From IMG/VR virus record IMGVR_UViG_3300010885_072825, positions 1-64,000 of that record: a stretch of DNA of 64,000 bases; one strand, 5' to 3'. Shown piece by piece: positions 1 to 55,112 of the stretch. The position numbers and the translations under genes were made by a program. The first letter of the stretch is position 1, and every line of letters starts with the position of its first letter. The notes beneath the pieces were generated by a model. The model saw only the letters and a list, made by a program, of their open reading frames with translations. It ran no database searches and was not told the origin of the DNA. This stretch comes from a virus.

Positions 1-150
1 AATTACTGATTGAAACAGAACCACTTGTTACATTAACGTTGCCAACTACTGCTTGATTAGCTGGGAAATTACTGATTGAAACAGAACCACTTGTTACATT
101 AACGTTGCCAACTACTGCTTGATTAGCTGGGAAATTACTGATTGAAACAG
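1..150. repeat. 66-bp tandem repeat inside a coding region
   Basis: A 66-bp unit is repeated head to tail with near-identical copies starting near positions 1, 67 and 133 (the last truncated at its right side). The period is exactly 22 codons, so the repeat keeps the reading frame of the minus-strand gene. The array continues past the left edge, so its full copy number is unknown. Confidence 0.85.
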
Positions 151-2841: not shown

Positions 2842-5115
2842 ATGAAAATCTTAGACCTAATTGAAGATCGCCGGCCTGCTGACATAAATGATTGGTCTGA
2901 TTCACAGTTACTTGAATTTATATTTTCAAATTTGCAAAAAAATAAAAAATATCGGTCTTTAATTTCTTCTGATAGCTTGGATTATATTCGCAGCTTTTTA
3001 GAAAATGCTGATCATATATCTGAAGATGTCATGTTACAATCAGTTCAATTTGAACCACTGCTATTATATGTTTTCCGAAAATTCAATCCCAGTTTGAGAG
3101 TTCAACTAGCTGCGGTACAAGGTACTGGACGTGTGATTGGTAATATAAAATATCCTGCTCCACTGATTCAATGGGCTGCTTTTAATCAAGATCCTGGTGC
3201 TTTTTATCATATCCAACCTCCTGAATGCTGTATTCCTGAAATTAGAAAAATGCATGAAGAACGAACAAGTACATCAACGTTGACTGAAGCAACCAGCTAT
3301 GCAGAAATAGCTGAGTGTAATAGTTGGTCTGATGAAAAGGTTGTAAGATTTTTTAAAAAAGAAGCTAGAGAAATACTACGTGACCGGAAATTGGGATACT
3401 ATATTAATGGAACACCCAATTTGAAAGAATTCAGTGATACACGGCATCAAATAACCGCCGCGGTTTTTAAAAAATGTATAGAATTCGACCAATCAATTGC
3501 ATTATATAATTTTGCACGATTTATTCCGGCTGACAATATTTCATTACAACTACTCGCAGTACAATCCAATGGATTCACAATAAAACATTTTAACAACCCT
3601 TCTCCATTGGTTCAGTCTGCCGCATGTCGTTGTGAAAAATTTGCTATTAATTATATTAGGCCAATTGAATCAATTGATATTAATTTATTGAAAAAATACC
3701 GAGCTGAATTACAACGAGAACAAATAGCGTATTTAAATTCTATAGAAAACACGGACAAAGATACTTTGACTGAATCTTCTAAATTGCCCACCTCAGAAAA
3801 TTTGCAATATTGGTTGAGCAAATTTAACCCTATTGACTATATCAATCTTTGGCCGGATAATATTTTGATTGAATATTTCAAAACTCGGTATGCAACTCGT
3901 GCTGCAGAAATTTCATTTTATGATATATTTGAATATCGCAATACTTTGAGTGATCAAGTCATGTTGGAATTAATCAAATTAGAACCCGGTAATTATGATG
4001 TACTTAGAAAATTCCATCCCAGTTTAGAGGCACAAATAGAAACTTTAAAACGGAGCGGATTAAAGATATATTATATGAAGAATCCTCCACCACTCCTTCA
4101 AACAATAGCGTGTCTTCAAAATCACGATGCTATTAATTGGATTGACCCAATTGAATCAATCAATATATCACTACTGAAGAAATACAGATACATATTGGAC
4201 TCAGACCAACAAGCGTACTTGGAGTCTCTGGAAAAATTAACAGAGTCTGATGAATCCATTGACCTAGATGATCCGAATACATGGAGTGAAGAAGATCAAA
4301 ATGATTATTTAAGATCTTTTCCAGGAGCAATAAAAAAATTTAAAAATCCCAACAAACAAATTCAATTGGTGGCTGTTCGATACGATTCATGGGCATTACG
4401 CGATATTAAAGATCCAGACGAAGAAGTTCAATTAGCCGCCGTCACTGCTTATCCTATTAGCATCCGATATATCAAACATCCATCGCAAAAAGTCAAATTA
4501 GCTGCTGTTTCAAAAGATGGAATGTCTTTATTGCGCATAAACCCTGAAGAAAGAAATATAAATGTTCAACTAGCTGCGGTTATGCAAGATCCAGAAGTCA
4601 TTTATGAAATAGATAATCCAGTACCACTAGTTCAAACAGTTGCATTAAAAAAGACTCCCAAAGCAATTAATTGGATCCGACCTGAGTCAGCAATAGTTCC
4701 TGAACTACGAGAAAAATACAAAGATTATTTGTATGAATCATTGACTGAAGCCGCTTATGATGCAGATGATCCCAATAGCTGGACTGAAGAACAACAGATT
4801 GATTGGGTACGTCGAGAAGTTAGCCGAATTAAACACATCAAACATCCAAGCAAAGCTCTACAAATAGCTGCGGTCAAAGAAGACGGTTGGGCAATAAGTC
4901 AAATCGAACCCGAAAACCAGTGCATAGAAGCGCAATTGATTGTAGTCCGAGAAGACGGGCATGCTACTAGAATACGTTATATGCGAAATCCTCCTCCCAT
5001 GATTCAATGGGCAGCAATCAAAAACAACCCAAAAGTAATTAATTATATCAAACCACAAACATGTATAGATCCCAGTCTATTGAAGGAATATGGTCACCTG
5101 ATAAATAAACAGTGA
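2842..5115 (+). CDS. modular repeat polyprotein with prohead-protease sites
   Basis: 757 residues. Helical repeats of about 20-24 residues (pattern VQLAAV, then a small segment, then IRYIKHP) recall DUF4116/HEAT-like repeats. The protein is built of five modules of roughly 140-170 residues, and between each pair sits LTEA or LTES (L146, L309, L466, L634 approximately). (L/I)xE is the established cleavage motif of T4 gp21 protease. The N-terminus MKILDLIE also ends in this motif, like a T4 capsid-targeting leader. Modules usually end in a LLKKYR...YL..LE helix and begin with a NxWSxE or DPNxWSEE motif. A two-module paralogue lies at 51535-52413. Inference: an internal virion protein cut during head maturation. 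The ATG was preferred to an in-frame TTG one codon upstream. Confidence 0.75.
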   Translation: MKILDLIEDRRPADINDWSDSQLLEFIFSNLQKNKKYRSLISSDSLDYIRSFLENADHISEDVMLQSVQFEPLLLYVFRKFNPSLRVQLAAVQGTGRVIGNIKYPAPLIQWAAFNQDPGAFYHIQPPECCIPEIRKMHEERTSTSTLTEATSYAEIAECNSWSDEKVVRFFKKEAREILRDRKLGYYINGTPNLKEFSDTRHQITAAVFKKCIEFDQSIALYNFARFIPADNISLQLLAVQSNGFTIKHFNNPSPLVQSAACRCEKFAINYIRPIESIDINLLKKYRAELQREQIAYLNSIENTDKDTLTESSKLPTSENLQYWLSKFNPIDYINLWPDNILIEYFKTRYATRAAEISFYDIFEYRNTLSDQVMLELIKLEPGNYDVLRKFHPSLEAQIETLKRSGLKIYYMKNPPPLLQTIACLQNHDAINWIDPIESINISLLKKYRYILDSDQQAYLESLEKLTESDESIDLDDPNTWSEEDQNDYLRSFPGAIKKFKNPNKQIQLVAVRYDSWALRDIKDPDEEVQLAAVTAYPISIRYIKHPSQKVKLAAVSKDGMSLLRINPEERNINVQLAAVMQDPEVIYEIDNPVPLVQTVALKKTPKAINWIRPESAIVPELREKYKDYLYESLTEAAYDADDPNSWTEEQQIDWVRREVSRIKHIKHPSKALQIAAVKEDGWAISQIEPENQCIEAQLIVVREDGHATRIRYMRNPPPMIQWAAIKNNPKVINYIKPQTCIDPSLLKEYGHLINKQ

Positions 5116-5457: not shown

Positions 5458-5776
5458 AGATCAAAGAGTCTGGGATGATTTCATTTCACGCGTGGATTGG
5501 AATGTAAATTACCAGATTCAACCAATACATCAACCTCCCAAAATAATTTTGGATCTTCATGGTCTGACTATTCAAGCAGCTTGGCAACAAACTATTGATT
5601 TTATCAAACTTCATAAAATTCACAAAACAAAGTCGGTAATCGTCGTGACTGGGAAAAGTGGGGAAATTTTTAAAGAATTTGTCACTTGGTCGAAACTCAA
5701 TCCACTGGTCAAAAAAATAGAACCCATACTGGACCGGAGTCAAGAAGTGGGTTCTTTTAGAGTTTATCTAAACTAG
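5417..5776 (+). CDS. Smr-domain protein
   Basis: About 119 residues if started at the ATG at 5417 (TTTGGAAATCG before it); an ATG at 5351 and a GTG at 5444 are in the same frame. The product has the Smr fold signature: ILDLHGLTIQAAW, then SVIVVTGKSGE, then a C-terminal EVGSFRVYL. Smr domains, first known from MutS2 C-termini, are nucleic-acid nucleases; the LDLHG and TGKG-like (here TGKSG) motifs are visible. It overlaps the upstream membrane gene in another frame and converges with the phosphatase gene by 4 bp. Confidence 0.8.
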   Translation: MEKTPTYKSVIKPEDQRVWDDFISRVDWNVNYQIQPIHQPPKIILDLHGLTIQAAWQQTIDFIKLHKIHKTKSVIVVTGKSGEIFKEFVTWSKLNPLVKKIEPILDRSQEVGSFRVYLN

Positions 5777-9346: not shown

Positions 9347-10585
9347 CTACTGTTGTTCTAAAGAGCAACAGCTTCCTTCCGACGAAAGAATTGATTCCTG
9401 CTTCTGCGCTACATAACTAGATCCAACTAATGCCGGATCCCCGTCAGAGATAGCTCCACAGGCGTAAATTTCCGCAGTTCCTGCGGTATTTGTCTCTCTA
9501 ATTCCAAATTGAAGTATATTTATGGCGGCATTTGCATCCCGATCCATGACTAGCTCACAATGACTACATACATATGTGCGTTCATCTAACGTAATTGTTT
9601 TCTTAGAGCCACATCGATGACAGGCCTTAGTAGATGGCGCCCATCGATCAATTTGATGCAACAAGTTACCAGCCCATTGCTGCTTGTATTTCAAATATGT
9701 GATGAACTGAGCCCATCCCTGATCAGCAATTGATTTAGCAAGTTTTCTGTTTTTGATCATGCCCTTGATATTTAAATTTTCAACAAATACAACTGGGTAT
9801 CGTTTGGTTATCGCGCTACTTAATTGATGATGAAAATTACTTCTTTGGAATCTTATCTTTTGGTGTATTTTAGCTACTTTCTTCCGTTGTTTCTCCCTAT
9901 TTCGACTTGCTTTTTCTTTACGCGACAGTTTTTGTTGCGCACGCTTTAATTTCTTTTGTTTCTTTCTATAAAACTTGGGTGTTTCAAATACTTCACCATC
10001 ACTCGTGATAGCGAAGTCCTTGAGTCCTAAATCAATACCTATGCAGTCATCTTCTTGGAATTGCGTTTGTTGATCAACAACAGCTTGTTCTGTTAGCATA
10101 CAAACATACCACTGATCGCCATCTCGCTTAATAGTAGCTGATAGCAACCGACCTTTTATTTTTCTATGATACGTCCATTTGATTTTGCCAATAATTGGTA
10201 TTTGTATTTTATCAGACCACCACTTGATGTGTTTTGTATTGGTTTGACTTATTTCTATGGATGGATTAGCAGTGTGTTTGTTTTTGTAATGCGGAAAGCC
10301 CTTGCCGCGTTTAAAACAATCTACAATTGCTCGATCTAAATCAAATACACAATTTTGAAATGCATGTGCTGGTGCATTGAGCCACTCAAATTCCTTTTTT
10401 AAAGCGGGTAGTCTTTTTTTCATATCATAACGAAATTCAAACTTCTTTTCTGTGTCGTATTTATTGATATTGATTTCCAGCAATTTATTCCAGATAAACC
10501 GCAATTGACCTTGCCAACCAATCAAAGTTTGTATTTGATCGGAAGTTGGATTCAATCGAATTTTGTATGCGGATATTTTTTGCAT
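9347..10585 (-). CDS. tnpB: TnpB, RNA-guided nuclease of IS200/IS605-type element
   Basis: 412 residues, full length. The split RuvC nuclease is intact: GIDLGLKDFA (D185), FVENLNIKGM (E269) and DRDANAAINIL (D350). A zinc ribbon C322, C325, C340, C343 lies between the last two. The N-terminal wedge domain begins with ISAYKIRLNPTSDQ and ends in FDLDRAIVDCFKRGKGFP. TnpB is guided by an RNA from the right end of its element and cuts at the donor-joint target. No TnpA transposase is visible, so the element is non-autonomous or TnpB has been kept alone. An internal CATAAATA at 9517-9524 could drive an RNA through the 3' end. Confidence 0.93.
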   Translation of the reverse strand: MQKISAYKIRLNPTSDQIQTLIGWQGQLRFIWNKLLEININKYDTEKKFEFRYDMKKRLPALKKEFEWLNAPAHAFQNCVFDLDRAIVDCFKRGKGFPHYKNKHTANPSIEISQTNTKHIKWWSDKIQIPIIGKIKWTYHRKIKGRLLSATIKRDGDQWYVCMLTEQAVVDQQTQFQEDDCIGIDLGLKDFAITSDGEVFETPKFYRKKQKKLKRAQQKLSRKEKASRNREKQRKKVAKIHQKIRFQRSNFHHQLSSAITKRYPVVFVENLNIKGMIKNRKLAKSIADQGWAQFITYLKYKQQWAGNLLHQIDRWAPSTKACHRCGSKKTITLDERTYVCSHCELVMDRDANAAINILQFGIRETNTAGTAEIYACGAISDGDPALVGSSYVAQKQESILSSEGSCCSLEQQ

Positions 10586-12357: not shown

Positions 12358-12432
12358 TGGTCCTCGCAGTTGGGATCGAACCAACCACCCGCGGTTTATG
12401 AGACCGCCGCTCTACCACTGAGCTATACGAGG
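12358..12432 (-). tRNA. tRNA with CAT anticodon (tRNA-Met or tRNA-Ile2)
   Basis: 75 nt including an encoded CCA. Acceptor stem CCTCGTA/TGCGAGG with discriminator A; D arm TAGCTCAGTGGTAGAGC; anticodon stem GCGGT/ACCGC with loop CTCATAA (anticodon at 12398-12400); T arm with GGTTCGATCC. It lacks the three G-C pairs of an initiator. CAU anticodons are read as Met, or as Ile (AUA) if C34 becomes lysidine; a tilS gene for that modification lies 1.6 kb away, so an Ile2 identity is possible. Confidence 0.93.
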
Positions 12433-13660: not shown

Positions 13661-14082
13661 TTCTTAAATTCCATTTTAGAACCAATATTGAAAACAACTT
13701 TAAGTGCCAAATATCCCAAGATCAATATTGCAGCAAGTTTGGCTTGTAGATGATTTCCTGAATACCAAACCAGAACCAGAGGCAAGATCCACATAAAGAA
13801 TATGGTTGGAAGATCCCACGTCCAGCTATGAAGAGTGATGTAGGTTAGGCTGGAATTTGGATATTTTTGGAAATTTTCCAGTTGATTATTTCGAATCCAG
13901 TTAGCAGTCACATTGTATAAAATGATAACCAAACAGACCGAAAATCCCAGCAATCCAACCCAACACCAACTTAAGAAAGCAGCAATGCCCATCAAGGCGG
14001 GGGAATCTGTTCCAAACGCAATAGACAGCGACAACATGAAACTAAAAACATAATGTCCTATTGAAGGAACTCTTTTAACCAT
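13657..14082 (-). CDS. membrane protein (about four TM)
   Basis: 141 residues with hydrophobic segments near 9-25, 30-56, 86-107 and 110-130. Start overlaps the 3' end of tilS by 8 bp. Not recognised; size and topology resemble the downstream 137-residue protein, though no clear sequence identity is seen. Confidence 0.65.
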   Translation of the reverse strand: MVKRVPSIGHYVFSFMLSLSIAFGTDSPALMGIAAFLSWCWVGLLGFSVCLVIILYNVTANWIRNNQLENFQKYPNSSLTYITLHSWTWDLPTIFFMWILPLVLVWYSGNHLQAKLAAILILGYLALKVVFNIGSKMEFKK

Positions 14083-15016
14083 TTTCCCAACTCAACATTA
14101 ATTTGTTGCCCACTTTGTGCAAAGTTAGTGATTCTACTCGAATTTCATTCCTAGCATCTGGACCAGTAGTCAACAATTCACGACTAAAGTGTTCAATCTG
14201 ACCAGTACTAAAACTTGTAATATTATAGTGATCAAAGATATGCAAAATCAAATTCTTAATTCTAATCTGTGACCAAGTCTTGATTATTTTCAAATCCAAA
14301 CTGTTTCTTGTAATTTCTGCAGACCGCCAATCCAGTTGTGCCAATTCACGCGTCAATTCAAATGTTTCTCCCAACAAATCAATTGACTTGTTGATGTTAA
14401 TGTCAGCAATCGCATACCGAGATTGTACCAGAGGCCACATGACATTTCGGATCCAATTTCTATCAAATCGATTTGATGCATTGCTGGGATCAGTAATATG
14501 TTCAATATGGTTGATTAGAGCATAAGATTCCAATTGTTCTCGTGTTTGATTAAGCAGTGGTCTAATAACTTGGATTGCAGGATCCAACCAACAGGCTGTT
14601 GTAGTTGTCATACCCTTGAGACCTTTGATGCCAGATCCTCGCATCAATTTCATAAAAAAGGTTTCAATACGATCATTCAAATGATGAGCCAGCACAATAG
14701 TATCAGCACCCAAACCACATAGAGCTTGATAGCGAGCTGAACGAGCAGCAAATTCCAAATTGTTTCCCGTCACCTCAACGCGAATTGTTTGTTGATCAAA
14801 TCCCAACCTGGCAGCTTCTCGTTCAACAAAGTTACCCCAAGATTGACTGTCAGGGTTCAATTGATGATCAACATAAACAACTCGCCAAGTCTTAGCGGCT
14901 GTTTTAAATTTAGCCAGTGAATGCATTAGCACCATACTGTCCAAACCACCACTGACTCCAATAACGATATTGTGACTATTGACAAATAGTTGATCAAATG
15001 TTTTTTGAGTAATCAT
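14075..15016 (-). CDS. tilS: tRNA(Ile)-lysidine synthase
   Basis: 313 residues. The PP-loop ATP site VSGGLDSMVL (SGGxDS, 22-27) is intact; VYVDHQLNP, LAHHLNDRIETFFMKLMRGS and ITDPSNASNRFDRNWIRN follow in TilS order. It attaches lysine to C34 of CAU-anticodon tRNA-Ile2, changing reading from AUG to AUA. It is shorter than E. coli TilS (about 430), with a reduced C-terminal region, like many compact TilS. The neighbouring phage tRNA has a CAU anticodon and is a natural candidate substrate. Confidence 0.9.
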   Translation of the reverse strand: MITQKTFDQLFVNSHNIVIGVSGGLDSMVLMHSLAKFKTAAKTWRVVYVDHQLNPDSQSWGNFVEREAARLGFDQQTIRVEVTGNNLEFAARSARYQALCGLGADTIVLAHHLNDRIETFFMKLMRGSGIKGLKGMTTTTACWLDPAIQVIRPLLNQTREQLESYALINHIEHITDPSNASNRFDRNWIRNVMWPLVQSRYAIADININKSIDLLGETFELTRELAQLDWRSAEITRNSLDLKIIKTWSQIRIKNLILHIFDHYNITSFSTGQIEHFSRELLTTGPDARNEIRVESLTLHKVGNKLMLSWENG

Positions 15017-15765: not shown

Positions 15766-16452
15766 TTATTCAGCTTGCGGTCGGTTAAGAATTCTATTGG
15801 TGCGAATGAAAGTGGTTCTCTTGCTAATTTCTTTGAGTTTCTCTGCACCAATATAACTCATTGTTGATCTGAGTCCGCCCAGGAATTCTTCTACCGTGTT
15901 GGCAACAGCTCCTTTGTATGGAACAAATGATGTGCGGCCTTCAGCAGTCTTGTAGTCACTTTTACCACCATAGTGTTTATCCATGGCTTCTTGGCTTGCC
16001 ATACCATAAATCTTCATTTTGAAATCACTGCCTGGCAACGCAGGATCATCTGGCAAATCCAAAACCAGTTTGCCATCAACCATTTTGGTTTTGGTATAGG
16101 GCTTGCCCCATTCCCAGAGTTCACCCGCACATTCTTTGTGACCTCCCAGTACAGATCCCATCATAATAAAATCTGCTCCGGCACCAAATGCCTTGCCAAG
16201 ATCACCAGGGTAAACAATCCCACCATCACTGCAAATCAAACCTTTGAGTCCATGTGCAGCATCCGCGCATTCGACCACGGCCGATAGTTGCGGAACACCA
16301 ACTCCGGCTACACGACGGGTCGAACATTGACTATTATGTACTACAATACCATCAATGTTATATGAATGGTCTTCTTCAACTTCTAGATCATAAGTATCAC
16401 CAGAATAATCTTCTGATACTATATATGTGATTTCTATTAAATCAAAATTCAT
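15766..16452 (-). CDS. guaC: GMP reductase, C-terminal part with split-intein C fragment
   Basis: 228 residues. Residues 1-40 are an intein C fragment (IntC) ending with VVHN, followed by Ser41 as the +1 nucleophile. Residues 41-228 are the second half of GMP reductase: SQCSTRR (C43 is the catalytic cysteine), ECADAAHGLKGLICSDGG, IYGMASQEAMDKHYGG, EEFLGGLRSTMSYIGA and KRTTFIR, all as in E. coli GuaC. The N-terminal half is encoded separately at 17413-18264. Protein trans-splicing would join 183 and 188 residues into a 371-residue enzyme that converts GMP to IMP with NADPH. Its ATG overlaps the endonuclease stop by 11 bp. Confidence 0.92.
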   Translation of the reverse strand: MNFDLIEITYIVSEDYSGDTYDLEVEEDHSYNIDGIVVHNSQCSTRRVAGVGVPQLSAVVECADAAHGLKGLICSDGGIVYPGDLGKAFGAGADFIMMGSVLGGHKECAGELWEWGKPYTKTKMVDGKLVLDLPDDPALPGSDFKMKIYGMASQEAMDKHYGGKSDYKTAEGRTSFVPYKGAVANTVEEFLGGLRSTMSYIGAEKLKEISKRTTFIRTNRILNRPQAE

Positions 16453-17383
16453 TACGTAATCTTTCTATTAAAGTTGGTAAATCAGCAAGTTCATATTCCC
16501 AAATCAAAATCAATTTGAAATTATGTTTTTCTGCAAATTCTTTTTTATCAATGTCAGCCATAATATTTGTTTGTTGTATTTTGTTCAATGGCTTTTTGCC
16601 TTCACCATAAAACATTGGATTACCATGCCAATAGTCTCCTTGATGTTGTATTAATATTCTATGCTTTTTACTTCCAAAATCAAATTGTTTAAAATCTAAT
16701 ATAACACTATATTCAAATTCCATTTCAGTGAAATATTCTTGTAAAATTTTATTAATCAATTCTTCCGGTTTATTCATAGTATATCGATCTTGTGATATTA
16801 ATGATGCTTGAGCAGCCTTTTTTCTAATATTCACATAATGTTCCGGATCTCTATCTTTTATCATCTGTTGAAGTTTTTTTAAATTATTTGACCGCTTTAA
16901 TTTCTCTTCTTCCGATATATTTTTGTAATAGTTTTTTGATATTTCACTTAATCTTTGTATTGTTTCTTCAGTATGGGTTTTTCCATAAAAAGAATTTAAT
17001 TCACCTTTCCTACCACATTTCTCTCGTAGTATTTGTATTGTTTCTTCAGTATGGGTTTTTCCATAAAAAGGATTTAATTCTCCAATAAACCTACCTTTCA
17101 TGTATTTTGACAGGCGGTCTTTAAATTCATCAGTATGAGTTTTTCCATAAAAAGTATTCTTTTCACCTGACATATTACATGTTTGACAGATATACTCTTT
17201 TTTAAATAATCCTCTTCGAAAATTAATTTCGTTCTTTTTTCCACATAATGAACATTCAATTTCAATTCTTCCTAGATCACCAGTCTTTATTTTTTCTCCA
17301 TTATCTAGACTAGCAATATTATTTCTTCCTATTTTTTCAAAACCTAATACCTGTTTTCCATCTTTAAAAATCTTTAAATTCAA
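16442..17383 (-). CDS. homing endonuclease, NUMOD3 plus Vsr-like domain
   Basis: 313 residues. A zinc ribbon (C44, C47, C66, C69) is followed by three NUMOD3 DNA-binding repeats (GEKNTFYGKTHTDE, GELNPFYGKTHTEE, GELNSFYGKTHTEE). The C-terminal 110 residues resemble the Vsr-like/EDxHD homing nucleases: PEELINKIL, then IQHQGDYWHGNP, then NIMADIDKKEFAEKHNF and LILIWEYEL. It sits between the two halves of a split-intein-broken guaC, the arrangement described for 'fractured genes' in phage metagenomes. It would cut intein-less guaC alleles. A late octamer lies 31 bp upstream. Confidence 0.88.
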   Translation of the reverse strand: MNLKIFKDGKQVLGFEKIGRNNIASLDNGEKIKTGDLGRIEIECSLCGKKNEINFRRGLFKKEYICQTCNMSGEKNTFYGKTHTDEFKDRLSKYMKGRFIGELNPFYGKTHTEETIQILREKCGRKGELNSFYGKTHTEETIQRLSEISKNYYKNISEEEKLKRSNNLKKLQQMIKDRDPEHYVNIRKKAAQASLISQDRYTMNKPEELINKILQEYFTEMEFEYSVILDFKQFDFGSKKHRILIQHQGDYWHGNPMFYGEGKKPLNKIQQTNIMADIDKKEFAEKHNFKLILIWEYELADLPTLIERLRNEF

Positions 17384-17412
17384 TACCGGCTCCTATAGCA
17401 TATTTAACCATG

Positions 17413-18264
17413 CTATTTATGCCGTAGGAGAAGATAATCTTTTGATAAATCTTTCGCAGGTATCCATTCTGCGTAATTTTGAATGTTATGATTATTGACG
17501 ATTTCTCGGTATTTTTTATGTAATACATAAAATTCATGATTTGGAGTTGCTTTAATTCCATTAATATTGATAATTTCTTTTTTATCATCAAATTTAAAAG
17601 TATTTGTAACAGTCTTAAATTTTCCCGTATGAGTAAGTACTTTTTCACCAATGCCAATATCTTCAATATTACGTAACCCATTTTCTGTCAATACTTGTTG
17701 TCCCGGTACAAAACACCCAGGACCAATGCCTACTTTTACTATGTCCGCTCCTGCCAAAACCAGCGCTTCTGTCATTTCCGGCGTACAAACATTACCTGCC
17801 ATAATGGTCAAGTCAGGATTCTCTTCACGCACTTTTGACAGAAAATCCACAAATGATTCCAAATAAGCACTTGGTACATCAATGCATAGATTTTGAATTC
17901 GATTATCTTTTTCTTGTACGTCACAGAACAATCGATAATCCTGCTCCCGCATACCAATTGAAAACCAAGCTAATTCAACTTCTCGGTCACTCATCGATTG
18001 CCAAGCTGCCAAATGTTGCTCTTCAGTGTAGAATTTATGAAAAGCAGTCATCATTTGATACTTAGACAGTGACTTATGCATGGCAAAGGTGCCAATGGTG
18101 TCCATGTTAGCAGCGACAATAGGCACCCCCGTCCAAGATCGACCACTATGTTTCATAATAAAAGTGCGAGTGATGTCTACATCTCGACGCGATTTCAAAA
18201 CACTGCGCTTAGGAAGAATTAAAACATCATCAAAATCAAGTTTAACTTCCAAATCAATTTTCAT
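17413..18264 (-). CDS. guaC: GMP reductase, N-terminal part with split-intein N fragment
   Basis: 283 residues. Residues 1-183 match GuaC: FDDVLILPKRSVLKSRRDVD, GVPIVAANMDTIGTFAM, IMAGNVCTPEM and ADIVKVGIGPG. Residue C184 begins an intein N fragment of 100 residues (CFVPGQQVLTENGLRNIED; block B near TPNHEFYV) that ends at a stop. The break falls in the active-site loop, just before the S-x-C-S-T-R motif. The layout resembles the IMPDH-1 split intein family. The start overlaps the exonuclease stop (TAATG). Confidence 0.92.
   Translation of the reverse strand: MKIDLEVKLDFDDVLILPKRSVLKSRRDVDITRTFIMKHSGRSWTGVPIVAANMDTIGTFAMHKSLSKYQMMTAFHKFYTEEQHLAAWQSMSDREVELAWFSIGMREQDYRLFCDVQEKDNRIQNLCIDVPSAYLESFVDFLSKVREENPDLTIMAGNVCTPEMTEALVLAGADIVKVGIGPGCFVPGQQVLTENGLRNIEDIGIGEKVLTHTGKFKTVTNTFKFDDKKEIININGIKATPNHEFYVLHKKYREIVNNHNIQNYAEWIPAKDLSKDYLLLRHK
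17414..17421 (-). promoter_or_regulatory. T4-late-like promoter before the homing endonuclease
   Basis: Minus-strand CATAAATA overlaps the stop codon of the IntN gene (His-Lys-stop read from the same bases) and lies 31 bp before the endonuclease ATG. It would allow the endonuclease and IntC-guaC to be expressed late, apart from the N half. Confidence 0.5.
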
Positions 18265-20258: not shown

Positions 20259-20617
20259 CACATTCTATTCGGAAATGAAAATTTAAATTCCAATATATCT
20301 TCTGGATCTGCTAACAGATACCAACGAACAATAAGATCATCTGCTGCTAAATCTACTAGTGGCCCATATCTAATTATCTCCCAACTAGTAGTCAAACGTT
20401 CAGACGCCCATTGAAAAACAGGAACAACTTTCTCTTCTTCAAATTTATAAAAAATAGTAGTTGTATATTGCCACCTAGATTGTCGACATTCAAATATCAT
20501 TACACTATTAATCGCTGTCATTCGGGGAGTTCGAACAGGATTAATTTTGAAATTGTCATATCCGATTAATCCACAGGCTTTGTCAAATGTTTCCGAAAGA
20601 TAGTTATAACTAGCCAT
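20258..20617 (-). CDS. hypothetical protein between topoisomerase genes
   Basis: 119 residues. Tryptophan- and tyrosine-rich with strands such as SVMIFECRQSRWQYTTTIFY and VRWYLLADPEDILEFKF; no motif recognised. It overlaps the large-subunit gene by 8 bp upstream and the medium-subunit gene (TGATG) downstream, so it is co-translated with both and could be a topoisomerase accessory factor, which is only inference from position. Confidence 0.65.
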   Translation of the reverse strand: MASYNYLSETFDKACGLIGYDNFKINPVRTPRMTAINSVMIFECRQSRWQYTTTIFYKFEEEKVVPVFQWASERLTTSWEIIRYGPLVDLAADDLIVRWYLLADPEDILEFKFSFPNRM

Positions 20618-22511
20618 TCAAACTAATCCAAGCTTTTCGGTCATCTGCACGAGCATGATTAAAAATCAAATCCAGAGCTTGGTGCAATTTGCCATCATCC
20701 ACAAGTGGGACTAATTGTGGATTTGCTAAACTCATTTGCCAATCTACCTTATCTAACGTTCCCAATCCTTTGGCTCGGCGAACATGTGGGTGACCACGCC
20801 ATTTTTCTGGATCATATTCTGCTACATTGTGAGCATACCAATAATGACGTCCCTTGTTCTTATCTAACTGTATTAGGAATGGTGTCATAAAAGCATTAAA
20901 GAAAGGCGGAAGCGCTGGATCAAATAATTCTGGCCAATTCAAGTAGAAAAAATTAACCAACAGAGCTGTAATATTGGCGCCATCCGGATCCTGGTCTGCT
21001 GCTAACCAAACTTCACCATATCGCAAATTTTTACGGTCAGCTGTCTGACCAAAGCTCAGGCCAATTGAAATCATAACATTTTGAATAATTTGATTTTCTA
21101 TTAGTCTTTTTGGTGATTCTCCATGTGCGTTGATAATTTTGCCACGCAACGGAAACGTGCCGTGAATTTCAGGTGTTCGAACAGCCGAACTCATTGACGC
21201 GGCGGAATTGCCTTCACAAATTATGAGGATGCATTTAGTTCGGTCTCGACCAGTTGCGTCCAATAGGCTTGGGACTTTTGTTCGCAACATTTTTTTATTG
21301 GCCTTGTTGATATCAGCATCATCACGCTTTTGAGTACGTTTTGCACAACGTTCATAAATTTCATCTATCCAAGCTCGGTTTGATTTAATCAACTTGTCTA
21401 AATTGGCTTCATCATCAAAGAATGCTTTGATATATTGATCTACTTCTTCGTTAATCAAGCGAGTCTTGCTTTGACTGTCAAAGTTGGGAGCATGCATGGT
21501 GGTGACATTGTATATTAGGAGACCCTCGCTGACATCACTTCGATTTGGAGTGAGTCCACGCTTTCGGCTTTCTTTTTCCAAAGCTCTGATAAGACCACCG
21601 TAAAATAGTTTTTTAAATGTATCAATATGTTGACCACCATTGAAAGCCGGAATATCATTCACTGTAGTATGAACGATTTCATCACTGTCAGTAAAATTAG
21701 GCACAAGAATATATTGGCTGGAAAACTTGGGTTGATCTATTACCAGTTTGATAACTGCTTGTCCATCAAAGAAAGTTTTTTCAATAGTGGGTTTTACTAG
21801 AATCTTTTTTGTATTGAAAGTGAATTTGATATTGGGATGAGCTGCTGCAATTTCCCAGACTCGTGCTTGCACAAATTCTAATGACAGTTGAGGATTCTTA
21901 AAAACCGACTTGCTCAATTTGAAAACGATCCTAGTTCCAGTCTTGCCTTTTAGAGGACTGATCTTGGGATCAAAAATTTGAAGTTGATCAAACAGTTCAT
22001 TTCCTTCTTTGTATTCCTGTGAAAATTTCATGCCATCTCGATAGATATCAACATGAAAATATTCACTGCAATTGACTACGATTGAGCTCCCAACGCCATT
22101 CGTTCCTCTTACGATTTCTCGATCTCCAAAGTTTCGACCAGCTCGGGTATGTGTTAGAGCTAGAGTAGCTTTGTGCATTTTTTCAACTGGATCCCAATCA
22201 ATTGGAATTCCGCGTCCATCATCAACCACTTCAAAAACAAATGTTTTGGGATCGAATGAAATATCTATTTTTGTGCCATGTCCGTGTCCAACAATTTCAT
22301 CCAGGGCGTTGTCAAAAATCTCACGAAAAAAAGCATAGACTGCTGGTGTCCAAGTTTGTTCCTGAACTTCTAATTTGGAACCAGTCCAATTGACAATATT
22401 TTGTGTATGTGGTGATTTTGAACCCAACCACATCTCTGTTCTAAGACGTGCATGTTGATATTCACTTAGTTTGACAATCGTGTCTTTTTCTGGTTTGGTT
22501 GTTTTTTTCAT
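20610..22511 (-). CDS. DNA topoisomerase II large subunit (gp39/gp60-like)
   Basis: 633 residues. GHKL ATPase: REIFDNALDEIVGHG, VVDDGRGIPIDW and GTNGVGSSIVV. The TOPRIM part has ILIICEGNSAASM (catalytic Glu) and DQDPDGANITALL (DxD). Unlike T4, where the subunit is split into gp39 and gp60, it is one reading frame here. It supplies the ATPase gate and Mg site to the GyrA-like partner. A late octamer lies 22 bp upstream. Confidence 0.93.
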   Translation of the reverse strand: MKKTTKPEKDTIVKLSEYQHARLRTEMWLGSKSPHTQNIVNWTGSKLEVQEQTWTPAVYAFFREIFDNALDEIVGHGHGTKIDISFDPKTFVFEVVDDGRGIPIDWDPVEKMHKATLALTHTRAGRNFGDREIVRGTNGVGSSIVVNCSEYFHVDIYRDGMKFSQEYKEGNELFDQLQIFDPKISPLKGKTGTRIVFKLSKSVFKNPQLSLEFVQARVWEIAAAHPNIKFTFNTKKILVKPTIEKTFFDGQAVIKLVIDQPKFSSQYILVPNFTDSDEIVHTTVNDIPAFNGGQHIDTFKKLFYGGLIRALEKESRKRGLTPNRSDVSEGLLIYNVTTMHAPNFDSQSKTRLINEEVDQYIKAFFDDEANLDKLIKSNRAWIDEIYERCAKRTQKRDDADINKANKKMLRTKVPSLLDATGRDRTKCILIICEGNSAASMSSAVRTPEIHGTFPLRGKIINAHGESPKRLIENQIIQNVMISIGLSFGQTADRKNLRYGEVWLAADQDPDGANITALLVNFFYLNWPELFDPALPPFFNAFMTPFLIQLDKNKGRHYWYAHNVAEYDPEKWRGHPHVRRAKGLGTLDKVDWQMSLANPQLVPLVDDGKLHQALDLIFNHARADDRKAWISLNG

Positions 22512-22573: not shown

Positions 22574-22605
22574 TAGAAAAAGAAAGCAGCATTTCTGCTG
22601 CTTTC
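22574..22605 (-). terminator. intrinsic terminator of the tmRNA gene
   Basis: Exact 10-bp stem GAAAGCAGCA/TGCTGCTTTC with a 4-nt loop, followed on the minus strand by TTTTTC. It ends the tmRNA transcript before the topoisomerase genes. Confidence 0.8.
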
Positions 22606-22915
22606 CTATAAGTTTTTCGGTTGCCAAGAAAACTTATAAACTCCGGTATACTATGCGACGAGCGCTAGTTCCATATTGTAATTGTCATTGACATTTACAG
22701 GTTTTTGGTTATAACGTAACCATTCGAGTTGCCATTCTATCTATAAAATGCCAGTCGATTCTAATCGGCCCCATAAAAGAACATCTGATATCTCAACCAA
22801 ATTTTGCAGACCTAGGTAACGATTTTACGTCTGAACCAGATGCTCATTGGTGGAGCCGCGGAAGAACTGCCCTTCCGGTGTTGCTCATTGTTCAATAGTT
22901 TGGTTTACAACTATT
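22606..22915 (-). ncRNA. ssrA: circularly permuted (two-piece) tmRNA
   Basis: The 3' tRNA half comes first: T-arm-like stem CGGAAG/CTTCCG (22859-22877), acceptor strand CGGCTCC, discriminator A and CCA (ending 22848). A 75-nt intervening segment follows, with a 9-bp stem (GAGCATCTG/CAGATGTTC). The 5' half starts at 22772 with GGGGCCG, pairing fully with CGGCTCC and keeping the G3-U70 wobble that AlaRS reads. AUUAGAAUCGAC matches the tmRNA D-loop region. A tag frame encodes VNDNYNMELALVA and stop (22692-22651), like ANDENYALAA tags. A hairpin (22607-22616 with 22629-22638) precedes the terminator. tmRNA rescues stalled ribosomes and tags products for Clp proteases. Ends are estimated. Confidence 0.88.
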
Positions 22916-22922
22916 AAATATA

Positions 22923-22951
22923 TTTATACGACATTATTTCTTTTATGTCAA
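22923..22951 (-). promoter_or_regulatory. sigma70-like promoter of the tmRNA gene
   Basis: Minus strand TTGACA, 17 bp, TATAAA, near consensus; start expected near 22916. The -10 extends into TATAAATA. It lies directly after the peroxiredoxin stop codon. Confidence 0.8.
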
Positions 22952-47905: not shown

Positions 47906-50122
47906 TTATTTTCCTTCTTGAAACTCAAACTCTAACTTTTTATTCTGTTCAGTGATAGTAACTCGCCCTCCTGTTTTTAGCCGACCCCAAAGAATTTCCT
48001 TGGCCAGTGGCGTCTTAATATAAGTTTGTATGACTTTTGGCATGGGGCGTGCTCCCATCCGTGGATCAAACCCACGTTCAATTAGCCAGGCTCTAGCTGA
48101 CGCATCAACTGTGACATCAACTGATTTTCCTTGACTTAACTGATTCAATTGACCAATGAATTTATCAAGTATATGATCCATAGTTATTTTTGTCAATGGC
48201 TTAAATTCAACTTGCGCATCAAGTCGATTTCTAAATTCAGGTGTAAAGAATCGGTTGACTGCATCCGAACTCTTGTCTGAATTGTCTGATTCACCAAATC
48301 CAATTCTCATTTTTGCAACTTCTTGTGCTCCAAGATTGGTGGTATAAATCACATAACAATTTCTAAGAGAAACAGTTTCACCATCTGAGCTGGTAATGAC
48401 ACCATAATCCATGGCTTGTAGGAAAATGTTGCTGATGTCCGGATGTGCTTTTTCAATTTCATCAATTAACAAAACTGCATAGGGATACTTTTGTAGCTTG
48501 TTGATCAACATGCCAGATCCTGCTGCACCATCTGAATATCCCACATAACCGGGTGGGCTCCCAATCAATTTAGAAACTGTATGCTTTTCTTGATATTCAC
48601 TCATATCAAAACGAATTAATTCAATTGACAATTGATTGGCAAGTTCTTGGGCAAGCGCTGTCTTACCAGTTCCTGTGGGACCAGTAAACAAAAAAGAACC
48701 CAGTGTTTTTTCCGTTTCTCTGAGACCACTACTAGATATCAATACTGAATCAACTAGTTGATCTACTGCCATGTCTTGTCCAAAAATTTTGGATTTTATT
48801 TTATCATTTAATGTTTTCAGTTGTTCAGTGGGATCGGCTGTTTTTGTAATTTTTATTTTTGCAACTCGTTCGATTTCTTCCTCAATTAAAGTTCGATCAA
48901 TTTGTCGAACACGTTGATTTTTAGGCAACAGTTTTTGTTTTGCACCAACTGAATCTATTAAATCAATAGCTTTATCTGGTAAGAAACGATCAATGATGTA
49001 TCGACTACTTAGTTCAACTGCTGCGACCAATGCATCAGGAGTGTATTTTACTGAATGGAATTTTTCATAGTGTTTTGAAATTCCCATCAAAATAGCAATA
49101 GCATCAGTTTGACTGGGTTCCAGCACGTCTATTTTTTGAAAACGGCGCACCAATGCACGATCTTTTGCAAAATGTCTCTTGTATTCTTCTTGTGTGGTAC
49201 TACCAATTGTTTTAATTTCACCACGTCCCAAAGCTGGCTTCAAAATATTTGCAGCATCCATTGCTCCACCAGACGTACCAACCGCACCAGCTCCCATGAT
49301 CATATGAATTTCATCAATAAACAAAATTAATTTGGGATCAGCTGCAAAAATACCAATAAGCTGTTTTAGTCGTTCTTCAAAATCACCACGAAATTTGGTT
49401 CCAGCCAACATACTAGATAAATCCAAACTGTAGATAGTGTGATTTTTCAAGCAATCTGGCACTTGATCTCGCACGATCTTGGCTGCAAGTCCTTCAACTA
49501 TCACGGTTTTACCAACGCCTGGATCCCCGGCCATAATCACATTGTTTTTATTTTTTCGAGTCAGGACCTGGCAAATAGCAGAGATTTCAGTTTCTCGACC
49601 AATAACAGTGTCGATTTTATTAGCTTTTGCTTGTTCATTTAAATTGATACACCATTGATTTAAAATATCACGCGGTGATTGCCGATTCCTTGCACTGCCA
49701 AGATTTGCCAAATAATTGAATAGCTGTTGTAGATCTGGTCCAAACTCTTCAATGAAATAAGAAGCATGACTTTCTTCAATACCATATAGTGCAATAAACA
49801 TGTCAATATCAGTTGGATCAGATTTGCCATTTATCATGGCCTGTGCTTTGGCTTTTTTCAAAACATTGGCAACGCTTGGTGTATGCCGTGGATTGTAGGG
49901 TTCTGCGGCTGACATAATTTCGTGATTATTGGTATTATCTAGATAATGCAGCGTGTATTCAATCAGTGAGTCAAAATCACCATCTGTCAGTTCAATCATT
50001 TTTTGAATTGCTTCACTTTCAAGTAGTGAAGCTAAGACGTGCTCCAAAGTCACCAGTTCATGATAGCGTTGACTGGCCAGTTGATAACTTCTGATCAGTA
50101 CTTCTTGTATGGTCTTATTCAT
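47906..50122 (-). CDS. ClpA-like AAA+ unfoldase
   Basis: 738 residues. N-domain ([28 protein letters not shown]) of Clp/Hsp100 type; D1 Walker A GDPGVGKT (199-206) and [13 protein letters not shown]2 Walker [12 protein letters not shown] and [12 protein letters not shown]. There is no long ClpB middle domain. A RIGFGE loop before [11 protein letters not shown] is in the position of the IGL/IGF loop with which ClpA/ClpX dock to ClpP. So it could use host ClpP. No clpP gene is in the window. It lies next to peptide deformylase and DnaJ. Confidence 0.92.
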
Positions 50123-50616
50123 TAAAATTCCTTCTTCATCATTCGTTTGATGGCCATTTCAGCTTTGAGATTCGATACTCTATCTACCATACAAATCCCT
50201 TGTAAATGATCAAATTCATGCAGAAATATTCTACTCAACATTTCAGACAACTGAGATTGTCGTATTTCTCCTGTTCGATCTAGCCATTTGGCTTCAATCA
50301 GATGTGGACGGGTGATTTCCAATTCCATGTTGGGCAAGCTCAAACAGCCTTCTGCATAAACGCTGTATTCTTCACTCACACCAACAATTTCAGGATTAAT
50401 GAAAACGATGTAATTGGTATCATCAGGATCACCAGCTATAAAAAACGATTTGTTTATTCCCACCTGTGGTGCTGCTAGACCAACCCCACCAAACATTTGC
50501 ATTATTTGATGCATTTCATCAAACGTGGCTTGTAATTCAGCAATTTCAGTGTCTTCCACTGGCAATGTTGGTTGAGTTAGTATTGGGTCCCAGGGTTTGA
50601 CTAATTCCAGTGTCAT
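50122..50616 (-). CDS. def: peptide deformylase
   Basis: 164 residues. Motif 1 GVGLAAPQVG (44-53), motif 2 EGCLSLP (89-95, Cys91), motif 3 FLHEFDHLQG (HExxH, H133/E134/H137): the complete zinc/iron site. Removes formyl from new N-termini. Phage-encoded deformylases are known from large T4-like phages. The start codon overlaps the stop of the dnaJ-like gene by 4 bp and its stop overlaps the ClpA-like start. Confidence 0.95.
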   Translation of the reverse strand: MTLELVKPWDPILTQPTLPVEDTEIAELQATFDEMHQIMQMFGGVGLAAPQVGINKSFFIAGDPDDTNYIVFINPEIVGVSEEYSVYAEGCLSLPNMELEITRPHLIEAKWLDRTGEIRQSQLSEMLSRIFLHEFDHLQGICMVDRVSNLKAEMAIKRMMKKEF

Positions 50617-51503
50617 GCATAGTTCCTGTTTATTGTCATTATTGATAGTAATTGTTTAGCAAGTTCTTGTTGTTCTTCAGTTAGATGTTTAACATTGGTA
50701 ATTTTAATGACCACTATCAAATCACCCATCAGTGTTTCATTGTGTCTGATGGGCATTCCTTTACCGCGTACCTTTAGATGATCATTTGCATTAATGCCAG
50801 CTGGGATCTTCAAATTAATAGTTGTTTTGTCCAAGCAGGCGAGTGTTACTTCATCTCCCACCAATGCTTGAATTGAATTAATGGTTATTTCTTTGAACAG
50901 GATTGATCGTTCGCGATGATACCCCTGCATATCACTAATGACAATTCTTACATATAGATCGCCCGGGGGTAAATTTGTGTGGGTCGTATCACCATGTCCC
51001 GCATATCTTATTTGTTCTCCGCTTTCAATACCAGATGGTACTCGTACTGTTAATTTTGTAGTTTGTCCCGAGGGCCTATCAAATGATATGTCCACAGATT
51101 TGCCTGTCAATGCATCTGACAAACTGATGTTTAATGTAAAGACCAGGTCTTGATTCTTGGGTGGAGGAGGTTTGAAACCAAAAAAGCTATCGAATTGATT
51201 TCCAAATGCACCACTTCCCATAAATTCTCGCAAAATATCTTCAGGGGTAACATGTGATTGGAATCCGCCGCCGAAATTGGAGAAGCCACCCCCTGCTCCA
51301 CCATACTTTAGCTGCTGGTCATACTGCGCTTTTTTCTGAGTATCTCCCAATATGTCATAGGCTTCTGCAACAGCTTTGAATTTGTCTTCAGTGTCTTTGT
51401 TGACATCCGGATGATATTTTTTTGCTAACTTTCGATAGCTGGATTTGATTTCTTCTGCGGTGGCTGTTTCAGAAAGCCCCAGTGTTTGATAGTGATTTGT
51501 CAT
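50613..51503 (-). CDS. DnaJ/CbpA-like co-chaperone
   Basis: 296 residues. J-domain with YRKLAKKYHPDVNKD (HPD 31-33), a Gly/Phe-rich linker (GGAGGGFSNFGGGF), and two C-terminal beta domains. There is no zinc-finger, so it is type II like CbpA. It would stimulate host DnaK, perhaps for virion protein folding. Next to peptide deformylase and ClpA-like genes. Confidence 0.92.
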   Translation of the reverse strand: MTNHYQTLGLSETATAEEIKSSYRKLAKKYHPDVNKDTEDKFKAVAEAYDILGDTQKKAQYDQQLKYGGAGGGFSNFGGGFQSHVTPEDILREFMGSGAFGNQFDSFFGFKPPPPKNQDLVFTLNISLSDALTGKSVDISFDRPSGQTTKLTVRVPSGIESGEQIRYAGHGDTTHTNLPPGDLYVRIVISDMQGYHRERSILFKEITINSIQALVGDEVTLACLDKTTINLKIPAGINANDHLKVRGKGMPIRHNETLMGDLIVVIKITNVKHLTEEQQELAKQLLSIMTINRNYA

Positions 51504-53987: not shown

Positions 53988-55112
53988 TTAGAAAAATATG
54001 CTGATTCGAACTTTGGCGCCAATAACAGTACCCGTATTGGAAGGGGTTAATCCAGTAACGACAAAGGTATTTGGTTGACTGATATCATATGCAATGAAAC
54101 ATGAATTTGATTCTGAAATACCAGTCCAACGTGTGGAATTGATAGCTTGCTGTCCCCACAAGAACATGCCTTGTGGCAAACCCAATCCAGTATAAGTGAC
54201 CGTCACAGTACTTCCAGATACAACCGTTTGCCAACCTGAAGGCACCCCAGTAACAGAATTGATTGTACCATCCATATTATAAACAACCGTAAAATTATAT
54301 ATAGTGTTTAGTCCCTGTGGACCAGTAGCTCCAGTTGAGCCTTGTATTCCTGTTGGACCAGTCAACCCCATGGGCCCTGTTATCTGTGAAGCTGCTCCGA
54401 CTGGTCCAGTTGGTCCTGTGGGACCTCCATTAGGACCAGTTGGTCCTGTTACAGTTGATTGTGCACCAGTTACTCCAGTAGGTCCAGTTGAGCCTTGTAT
54501 TCCTGTTGGACCAGTTACGGTCGACGCTGCACCAGTAGAACCTGTTACTCCGGTAGGTCCAGTTGATCCAACAATACCAGTTGGACCAGTCGGTCCATCG
54601 GGACCCATGCTTGGCCCAGTTGGTCCTGTTATTTGAAGGCCGCCTCCAAGTGAGGTGAACCCACCTGCAACCCCACCAACTGTACCATAATTCAATAATA
54701 TCTGAGTAATAGATCCTATATAAGCAGGATCCAGTGGTTGATTGCTCAAATAAGATCGATCTATGCGGGCGCGTACCCAGATAAAATTTCCAGAAAAACT
54801 ATAAGTGGCAATGCCCGTATCACCCAAATCTCCACTAGTGGGATTTGCAGGATCTTTGGGAAATTGTTGATAGGGCAACAAATCCAATGTTAAAGGGATT
54901 GGAAACCAATCAGCCGCTTGTGGATCAGTTGCAAGTGATCCGTCAATATACAACCGACCTACGAAGTTGGCCAAATAGGCGCTTATTGTGTGATTGTTGC
55001 CAACTGTATTTGTGTAACCAGCTCCGGGTGTTTTTGGACCAGTCACATTTACGGGAGTCGGTGATCCAGAAGGATTGGTAGTCGTACTACTTAAAAGAAT
55101 GACACTGTGCAT
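53988..55112 (-). CDS. collagen-like fibre protein
   Basis: 374 residues. N-terminal domain about 1-160; residues 162-267 are a Gly-X-Y collagen-like region rich in GPTG and GSTG triplets; C-terminal domain about 105 residues. Gly-X-Y repeats make triple helices in phage tail and head fibres. Encodes trimerising beta end domains likely. An AATAAATA octamer is right before the start. Confidence 0.85.

Follow-up and report, generated by a model that had tools for sequence, protein, structure and literature searches.

The window, a stretch of 64,000 nucleotides covering positions 1 to 64,000 of the 139,590-base virus record IMGVR_UViG_3300010885_072825, carries on its minus strand a permuted tmRNA gene (22651–22912, the extent of a match to Rfam RF04321 that reaches the stop codon of the tag). 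As a sequence-only reading of this DNA had described, the 3′ half of the tRNA-like part, with its CCA, precedes the 5′ half. The acceptor piece (22848–22912) consists of the 5′ strand of P2, the T-arm, CGGCTCC, A73, and CCA, the last three elements at 22858–22848, upstream of the 5′ acceptor strand GGGGCCG at 22772–22766. The seven acceptor pairs claimed between GGGGCCG and CGGCUCC all form, and they include G3-U70, which is the alanine identity pair. The spacer between the two halves (22847–22773) is exactly 75 nt long, as stated; it folds into a closed hairpin whose closing stem has an energy of −18.0 kcal/mol, contains no ORF, and should not form part of the mature two-piece tmRNA. The conserved AAUCGAC, the D-loop analogue, is found at 22760–22754, and the predicted tag frame with its stop codon is found at 22692–22651. 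This frame, with UAAAU just before it, reads GUC AAU GAC AAU UAC AAU AUG GAA CUA GCG CUC GUC GCA UAG and encodes VNDNYNMELALVA, so that the gene possesses a resume context (UAAAU-GUC), a stop codon, and a hydrophobic, Ala-rich tag end. Two features of the T-arm (22859–22877), a hairpin with a 7-nt loop located directly 5′ of the acceptor strand, were overlooked in the earlier reading. The stem has 6 bp rather than the usual 5 (CGGAAG-GGCAGUU-CUUCCG), and the loop, GGCAGUU, is of the alphaproteobacterial type. Additionally, the stretch from the acceptor to UCGAC in the D-region is 1 nt shorter than the model consensus.

The gene was also said to be framed by a promoter and an intrinsic terminator, and both elements can be placed. 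The promoter-like site (22921–22951, minus strand) consists of TTGACA at 22951–22946, a 17-nt gap, and TATAAA(TA) at 22928–22921; TTGACA-17-TATAAAT thus spans 22951–22922, approximately 10 nt upstream of the start of the RF04321 model, and the TATAAATA at 22928–22921 is also the T4 late-promoter octamer. The pattern TTGACN-15..19-ATAAAT occurs three times in the window against 0.85 expected, and the promoter-like site by itself is therefore weak support. A promoter scanner reported none at the window locus because it needs a second hexamer ending in T. The terminator, a hairpin followed by a U run (22599–22577, minus strand), is common to the sister phages L002 and L003.

Membership of the gene in the tmRNA family has been probed with covariance models from Rfam release 15. 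RF04321 (tmRNA_permuted) matches 22912–22651 on the minus strand with 81.8 bits (E = 4.2e-14), and RF01849 (alpha_tmRNA) matches 22955–22607 on the same strand with 74.1 bits (E = 2.7e-18). Both scores exceed the gathering cut-offs of 47 and 50, respectively, in the search that the sequence-only reading had proposed, and the match is far beyond chance. A second search suggested at the time turned out differently, as ARAGORN 1.2.41 misses the window tmRNA, including in tmRNA-only mode. This failure is probably due to the 6-bp T-stem, and the D-region that is 1 nt short is also a plausible cause. With two Rfam models above cut-off and tag frames conserved in about 40 relatives, the proposal of a permuted phage tmRNA therefore holds in those parts that can be computed.

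Both Rfam models have a T-stem of 5 bp, and viral contigs were consequently searched for an alpha-type T-loop with an extra nucleotide in the stem, filtering on a paired acceptor and UCGAC. Results from this search reveal 22 distinct viral tmRNAs with a 6-bp T-stem, the window's included, all of which form all six pairs; GC forms the outer pair in 11, CG in 10, and TA in 1. The same script returned 50 distinct tmRNAs with a 5-bp T-stem. The number of distinct genes, their full pairing, and the covariation of the outer pair indicate that the 6-bp T-stem is not an artefact of sequencing. A scan of 84,980 cellular genomes for permuted tmRNAs with a 6-bp T-stem and a spacer of 45–75 nt, the only spacer range covered, yielded no valid case; the sole match, from Streptomyces, was rejected upon examination of its acceptor and T-arm.

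Downstream, the tmRNA gene has a conserved neighbour that encodes the large subunit of DNA topoisomerase II (20610–22511, minus strand). Based on this protein, the closest isolates are Sinorhizobium phage Phosso (53% identity) and Agrobacterium phage Atu_ph07 (50%), and the earlier label of a T4-like phage is thus too simple; the virus is better described as a relative of these alphaproteobacterial jumbo phages. The Phosso genome (PV764938) contains a permuted tmRNA (113.3 bits) that is unannotated and lies in a gap between annotated genes. In contrast to the window, its spacer is 410 nt long and the gene is located approximately 28 kb from the topoisomerase gene. The related Sinorhizobium jumbo phage AP-J-162 also has a tmRNA; its description credits AP-J-162 with one tmRNA and Atu_ph07 with none, and the available text makes no mention of a permuted form for AP-J-162 (PMC11242549). 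No tmRNA scores above the Rfam cut-off in the Atu_ph07 genome, and the gene is therefore dispensable. SmpB was not found in the 139.6-kb record, in two sister contigs, or in the complete Phosso and Atu_ph07 genomes, so host SmpB would be needed. When the window tmRNA was used as a nucleotide query against phage records, no relative was recovered, whereas the protein of the neighbouring gene did find relatives.

Several other genes on the minus strand of the window merit description. A GMP reductase gene is present in two parts (15766–18264), the first of which carries what reads as an intein N-terminal part and the second of which carries an intein C-terminal region, with a third ORF (16442–17383) in between. 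This arrangement resembles the "fractured gene" split-intein layout of environmental phages. A TilS-like tRNA lysidine synthetase gene (14075–15016; TIGR02432, 162.3 bits) and a tRNA with a CAU anticodon (12358–12432; called as Met by ARAGORN) may represent a phage tRNA-Ile2 together with its modifying enzyme. The window also encodes a TnpB-family RNA-guided endonuclease (9347–10585; NF040570, 284.6 bits) and a collagen-like protein with GPTGPTGP repeats (53988–55112).

Conservation of the tmRNA gene was assessed in 50 viral records related by topoisomerase protein. RF04321 scores above cut-off in 39 of these records, and in every one the tmRNA is found on the same strand as the topoisomerase gene and 0.3–7 kb upstream of it, even in records of 155–519 kb. 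The other 11 include one with a tmRNA that carries an endonuclease in its spacer (G006), one in which the tmRNA is cut off by the contig end (G018), and several whose upstream sequence is too short for a verdict. The tags of the relatives are mostly of the form (A/V/D)N(D/E)N...AA, ending in small hydrophobic residues that are mostly AA. Acceptor pairing was evaluated using anchors independent of the pairing itself, with 3′ strands exchanged between genes as the control. The halves pair at seven of seven positions in 29 of the 34 distinct genes, compared to 8.3% following exchange. The genes possess 16 distinct acceptor strands. At pairs 4:69 to 7:66 both strands differ among genes, whereas all 29 have GU at 3:70. 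Apparent mismatches in G005, G008, G042, and G036 reflect a wrong anchor, as a separate analysis shows full pairing there, whereas the mismatch in G024/G025 is real. These mismatched acceptors, together with a truncated extra tmRNA copy in G036, suggest that not every copy need be active. In six relatives (G016, G019, G026, G047, G049, and G051), the permuted tmRNA has just 2–5 nt of spacer separating CCA from the 5′ acceptor strand. That this jumbo-phage group carries the gene almost constantly suggests that rescuing ribosomes during infection is important for these phages.

Comparison of close relatives offers insight into how the gene changes in place. L002 and L003 match the window at 92% identity across the block with the topoisomerase gene, and their tmRNA in the same place shares 43–53% identity with the window's over its three segments. 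This tmRNA is nevertheless permuted (88.2 bits) and has G3-U70, the tag ANDNAFMEMAA, and the T-loop UGCGAAU. The retention of a permuted tmRNA at 43–53% identity beside DNA that is 92% identical argues for selection on function. A stand-alone hairpin lies upstream of the sister tmRNA in L002 (approximately 5535–5610), and part of the window spacer recurs on its 3′ side (ATTTGGTTGAGAT). Among the relatives, the tRNA-like module can differ between genes whose P2 and mRNA segments are nearly identical. For example, the flanking segments of G034 and G029 are 100% and 87% identical while the module is 55% identical; their T-loops are GGCGGUA and UUCGAAU, respectively, and their acceptors differ accordingly yet remain paired. 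G024/G025 is apparently chimeric, and its acceptor is mismatched. These comparisons indicate that the gene or its tRNA-like module has been replaced repeatedly, with acceptor pairing, G3-U70, and the tag kept. Because the gene is permuted, the T-arm, the acceptor 3′ strand, the spacer, and the acceptor 5′ strand form one contiguous block, and a single exchange could therefore move a co-adapted module.

The spacers of some other phages contain endonuclease genes. The 504-nt spacer of G006, which has the same sequence as L313 from another sample, contains an ORF that matches the LAGLIDADG endonuclease I-MsoI (E = 1.5e-6) and PHROG 5046 (6e-18); its match to Pfam LAGLIDADG_1 is weak and just under the cut-off, and the AlphaFold2 model of the protein is poor (pLDDT 38.5). 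Spacer ORFs matching endonuclease or HNH/homing endonuclease PHROGs are also found in L281 (585 nt), L297/L318 (359 nt), and L316 (496 nt). RF04321 spans both tmRNA halves across the insertion with scores above cut-off in L318 (117.9 bits), L316 (101.1), L313 (82.8), and L281 (61.8). At five additional loci (L322–L326), a relative of the L281 protein lies between tmRNA halves that are recognisable by eye, and TATAAATA is found upstream of the ORF in G006, L297, and L316. The window's own spacer has no ORF.

Three other candidates were rejected as spacer endonuclease cases. L311 (G036:4800-7000) comprises a truncated tRNA-like domain with a 6-bp T-stem, a 250-aa ORF, and then a complete permuted tmRNA; by eye the ORF resembled an HNH protein, yet its only matches were PHROGs families without a known function. 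In L265 (7060–7800), TATAAATA and then a GIY-YIG endonuclease gene (PF01541, 2.6e-12) come immediately after a tmRNA-like 3′ half, but the 5′ half was not found. L315 (approximately 4310–4385) is instead apparently a gene resembling tRNA-Ala, whose T-loop, GGCGGTA, is of the tmRNA type and whose acceptor contains G3-U70.

A 2025 survey of 97,179 tmRNAs describes homing endonucleases in group I introns and notes a single tRNA gene and a single repeat in permuted intervening sequences (PMC11915505). A search of the open-access literature found no description of endonucleases in permuted tmRNA spacers. It is conceivable, at somewhat less than even likelihood, that the spacer shelters homing endonuclease genes without the need for an intron, and that these genes drive replacement of the tRNA-like module on a conserved backbone. 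Cleavage and homing by these endonucleases are hypothesized from sequence, and the window's own gene may have been exchanged in this way. The group I intron tmRNA genes with LAGLIDADG enzymes likewise have an endonuclease gene inside a tmRNA gene that is removed from the mature RNA. In contrast, those cases involve a self-splicing intron in the intron form, while the phages described here use the spacer of the permuted form and endonucleases of LAGLIDADG or HNH types.

The anatomy of the window gene, its covariance-model membership, and its retention by related jumbo phages at a site upstream of the topoisomerase gene are directly observed. The gene is very probably an alphaproteobacterial-type circularly permuted two-piece tmRNA that serves trans-translation during infection via host SmpB; expression, processing, charging, use of SmpB, proteolysis, and a benefit to the phage are what we infer from its sequence. 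First, transcription from the gene's own promoter-like site would probably yield a precursor of approximately 330 nt. Next, this precursor would be cut at the acceptor stem with loss of the 75-nt spacer, and the RNA would be charged with alanine by way of G3-U70 and then bound by host SmpB. Host SmpB, AlaRS, EF-Tu, and RNases would be used as in an ordinary two-piece tmRNA. During infection, this would free ribosomes that have stalled on broken mRNA of the host or the phage. Finally, the nascent chains would be tagged with VNDNYNMELALVA for Clp proteolysis, perhaps aided by a phage ClpA-like unfoldase. This protein is encoded at 47906–50122 on the minus strand, and an IGF motif can be read in its translation. 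Its best NCBIfam model is ClpA (TIGR02639) at 835.6 bits, which is below the equivalog cut-off of 993, and ClpB scores 653.6. The IGF-type motif in ClpA and ClpX docks on ClpP, and the phage protein could consequently help to degrade tagged proteins. Genes for the unfoldase, a peptide deformylase, and a DnaJ-like protein are adjacent (47906–51503, minus strand).

The presence of this unfoldase gene raises the question of whether the tmRNA instead carries an altered degron, and chiefly marks host proteins, or else phage proteins at a set time, for the ClpA-like protein in recycling or regulation. The layout in AP-J-162, where clpX adjoins the IF-3 and topoisomerase genes (PMC11242549), and the amino-acid recycling proposed for phage Melnitz (PMC9004378) are consistent with such a role. 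However, the tag ends (LVA in the window, LAA or AA in most relatives) are of the ordinary ClpXP/ClpAP type and there is no sign of substrate choice, making this alternative unlikely. The 6-bp T-stem and the shortened D-region depart from consensus and might impair function, and the unusual T-arm geometry would suit a decoy or dominant-negative RNA acting in competition with the host's tmRNA for SmpB or the ribosome, much as the tag-less DS6A phage form inhibits endogenous tmRNA (PMC11915505). Unlike that form, the window gene has a 13-codon tag frame, and the intact tag frame, resume-site context, stop codon, CCA, and G3-U70 of the window gene and its relatives would be unneeded by a decoy, which is accordingly considered improbable. 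Passive capture of a functionless host gene or integration-site remnant would fit with tmRNA genes being common integration sites and with the broken or extra copies in some relatives, but is highly improbable given that the window gene is complete and no fragment, adjoins topoisomerase genes in T4-type phages, holds its position across phages whose topoisomerases share approximately 58–67% identity with the window's, and keeps its structure while the sequence changes. Trans-translation with host SmpB is thus the preferred role. The permuted order may also let both tRNA-like halves travel together while the intervening content is discarded, an idea that is testable.

Two-piece tmRNA is already known in phages (PMC9004378, PMC11915505), and the earlier remark that a permuted form is little described in T4-like phages does not stand. 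The T4-like methylophage Melnitz has a two-piece tmRNA, and the same 2022 study counted 53 two-piece phage tmRNAs (PMC9004378); another study lists 79 phage tmRNA sequences (PMC11915505). The window gene shares its gene order, T-loop type (GGCRGUW), G3-U70, and tag position with the alphaproteobacterial ssrA (RF01849), but differs in its T-stem (5 bp in the consensus), its VNDN...LVA tag, and its location in a phage. Melnitz and the Pelagibacter phages HTVC008M and Mosig likewise combine a complete permuted tmRNA of alphaproteobacterial type with a lytic T4-type phage (PMC9004378). In contrast, the window belongs to another phage group, the jumbo phages related to Phosso and Atu_ph07, and its tmRNA has a 6-bp T-stem and a site conserved upstream of the topoisomerase large subunit. 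Additionally, unlike in the Melnitz-type phages, no glutamine riboswitch was matched among the Rfam families at the window locus. As far as the open-access literature was searched, the near-constant place, the in-place replacement, and the 6-bp T-stem class, each based on direct sequence comparison, are new, as are the spacer endonuclease genes, which are based on covariance-model spans and protein-family matches. Together, these findings take two-piece phage tmRNA beyond the scattered cases in marine phages and place it as a near-constant gene in one group of alphaproteobacterial jumbo phages.
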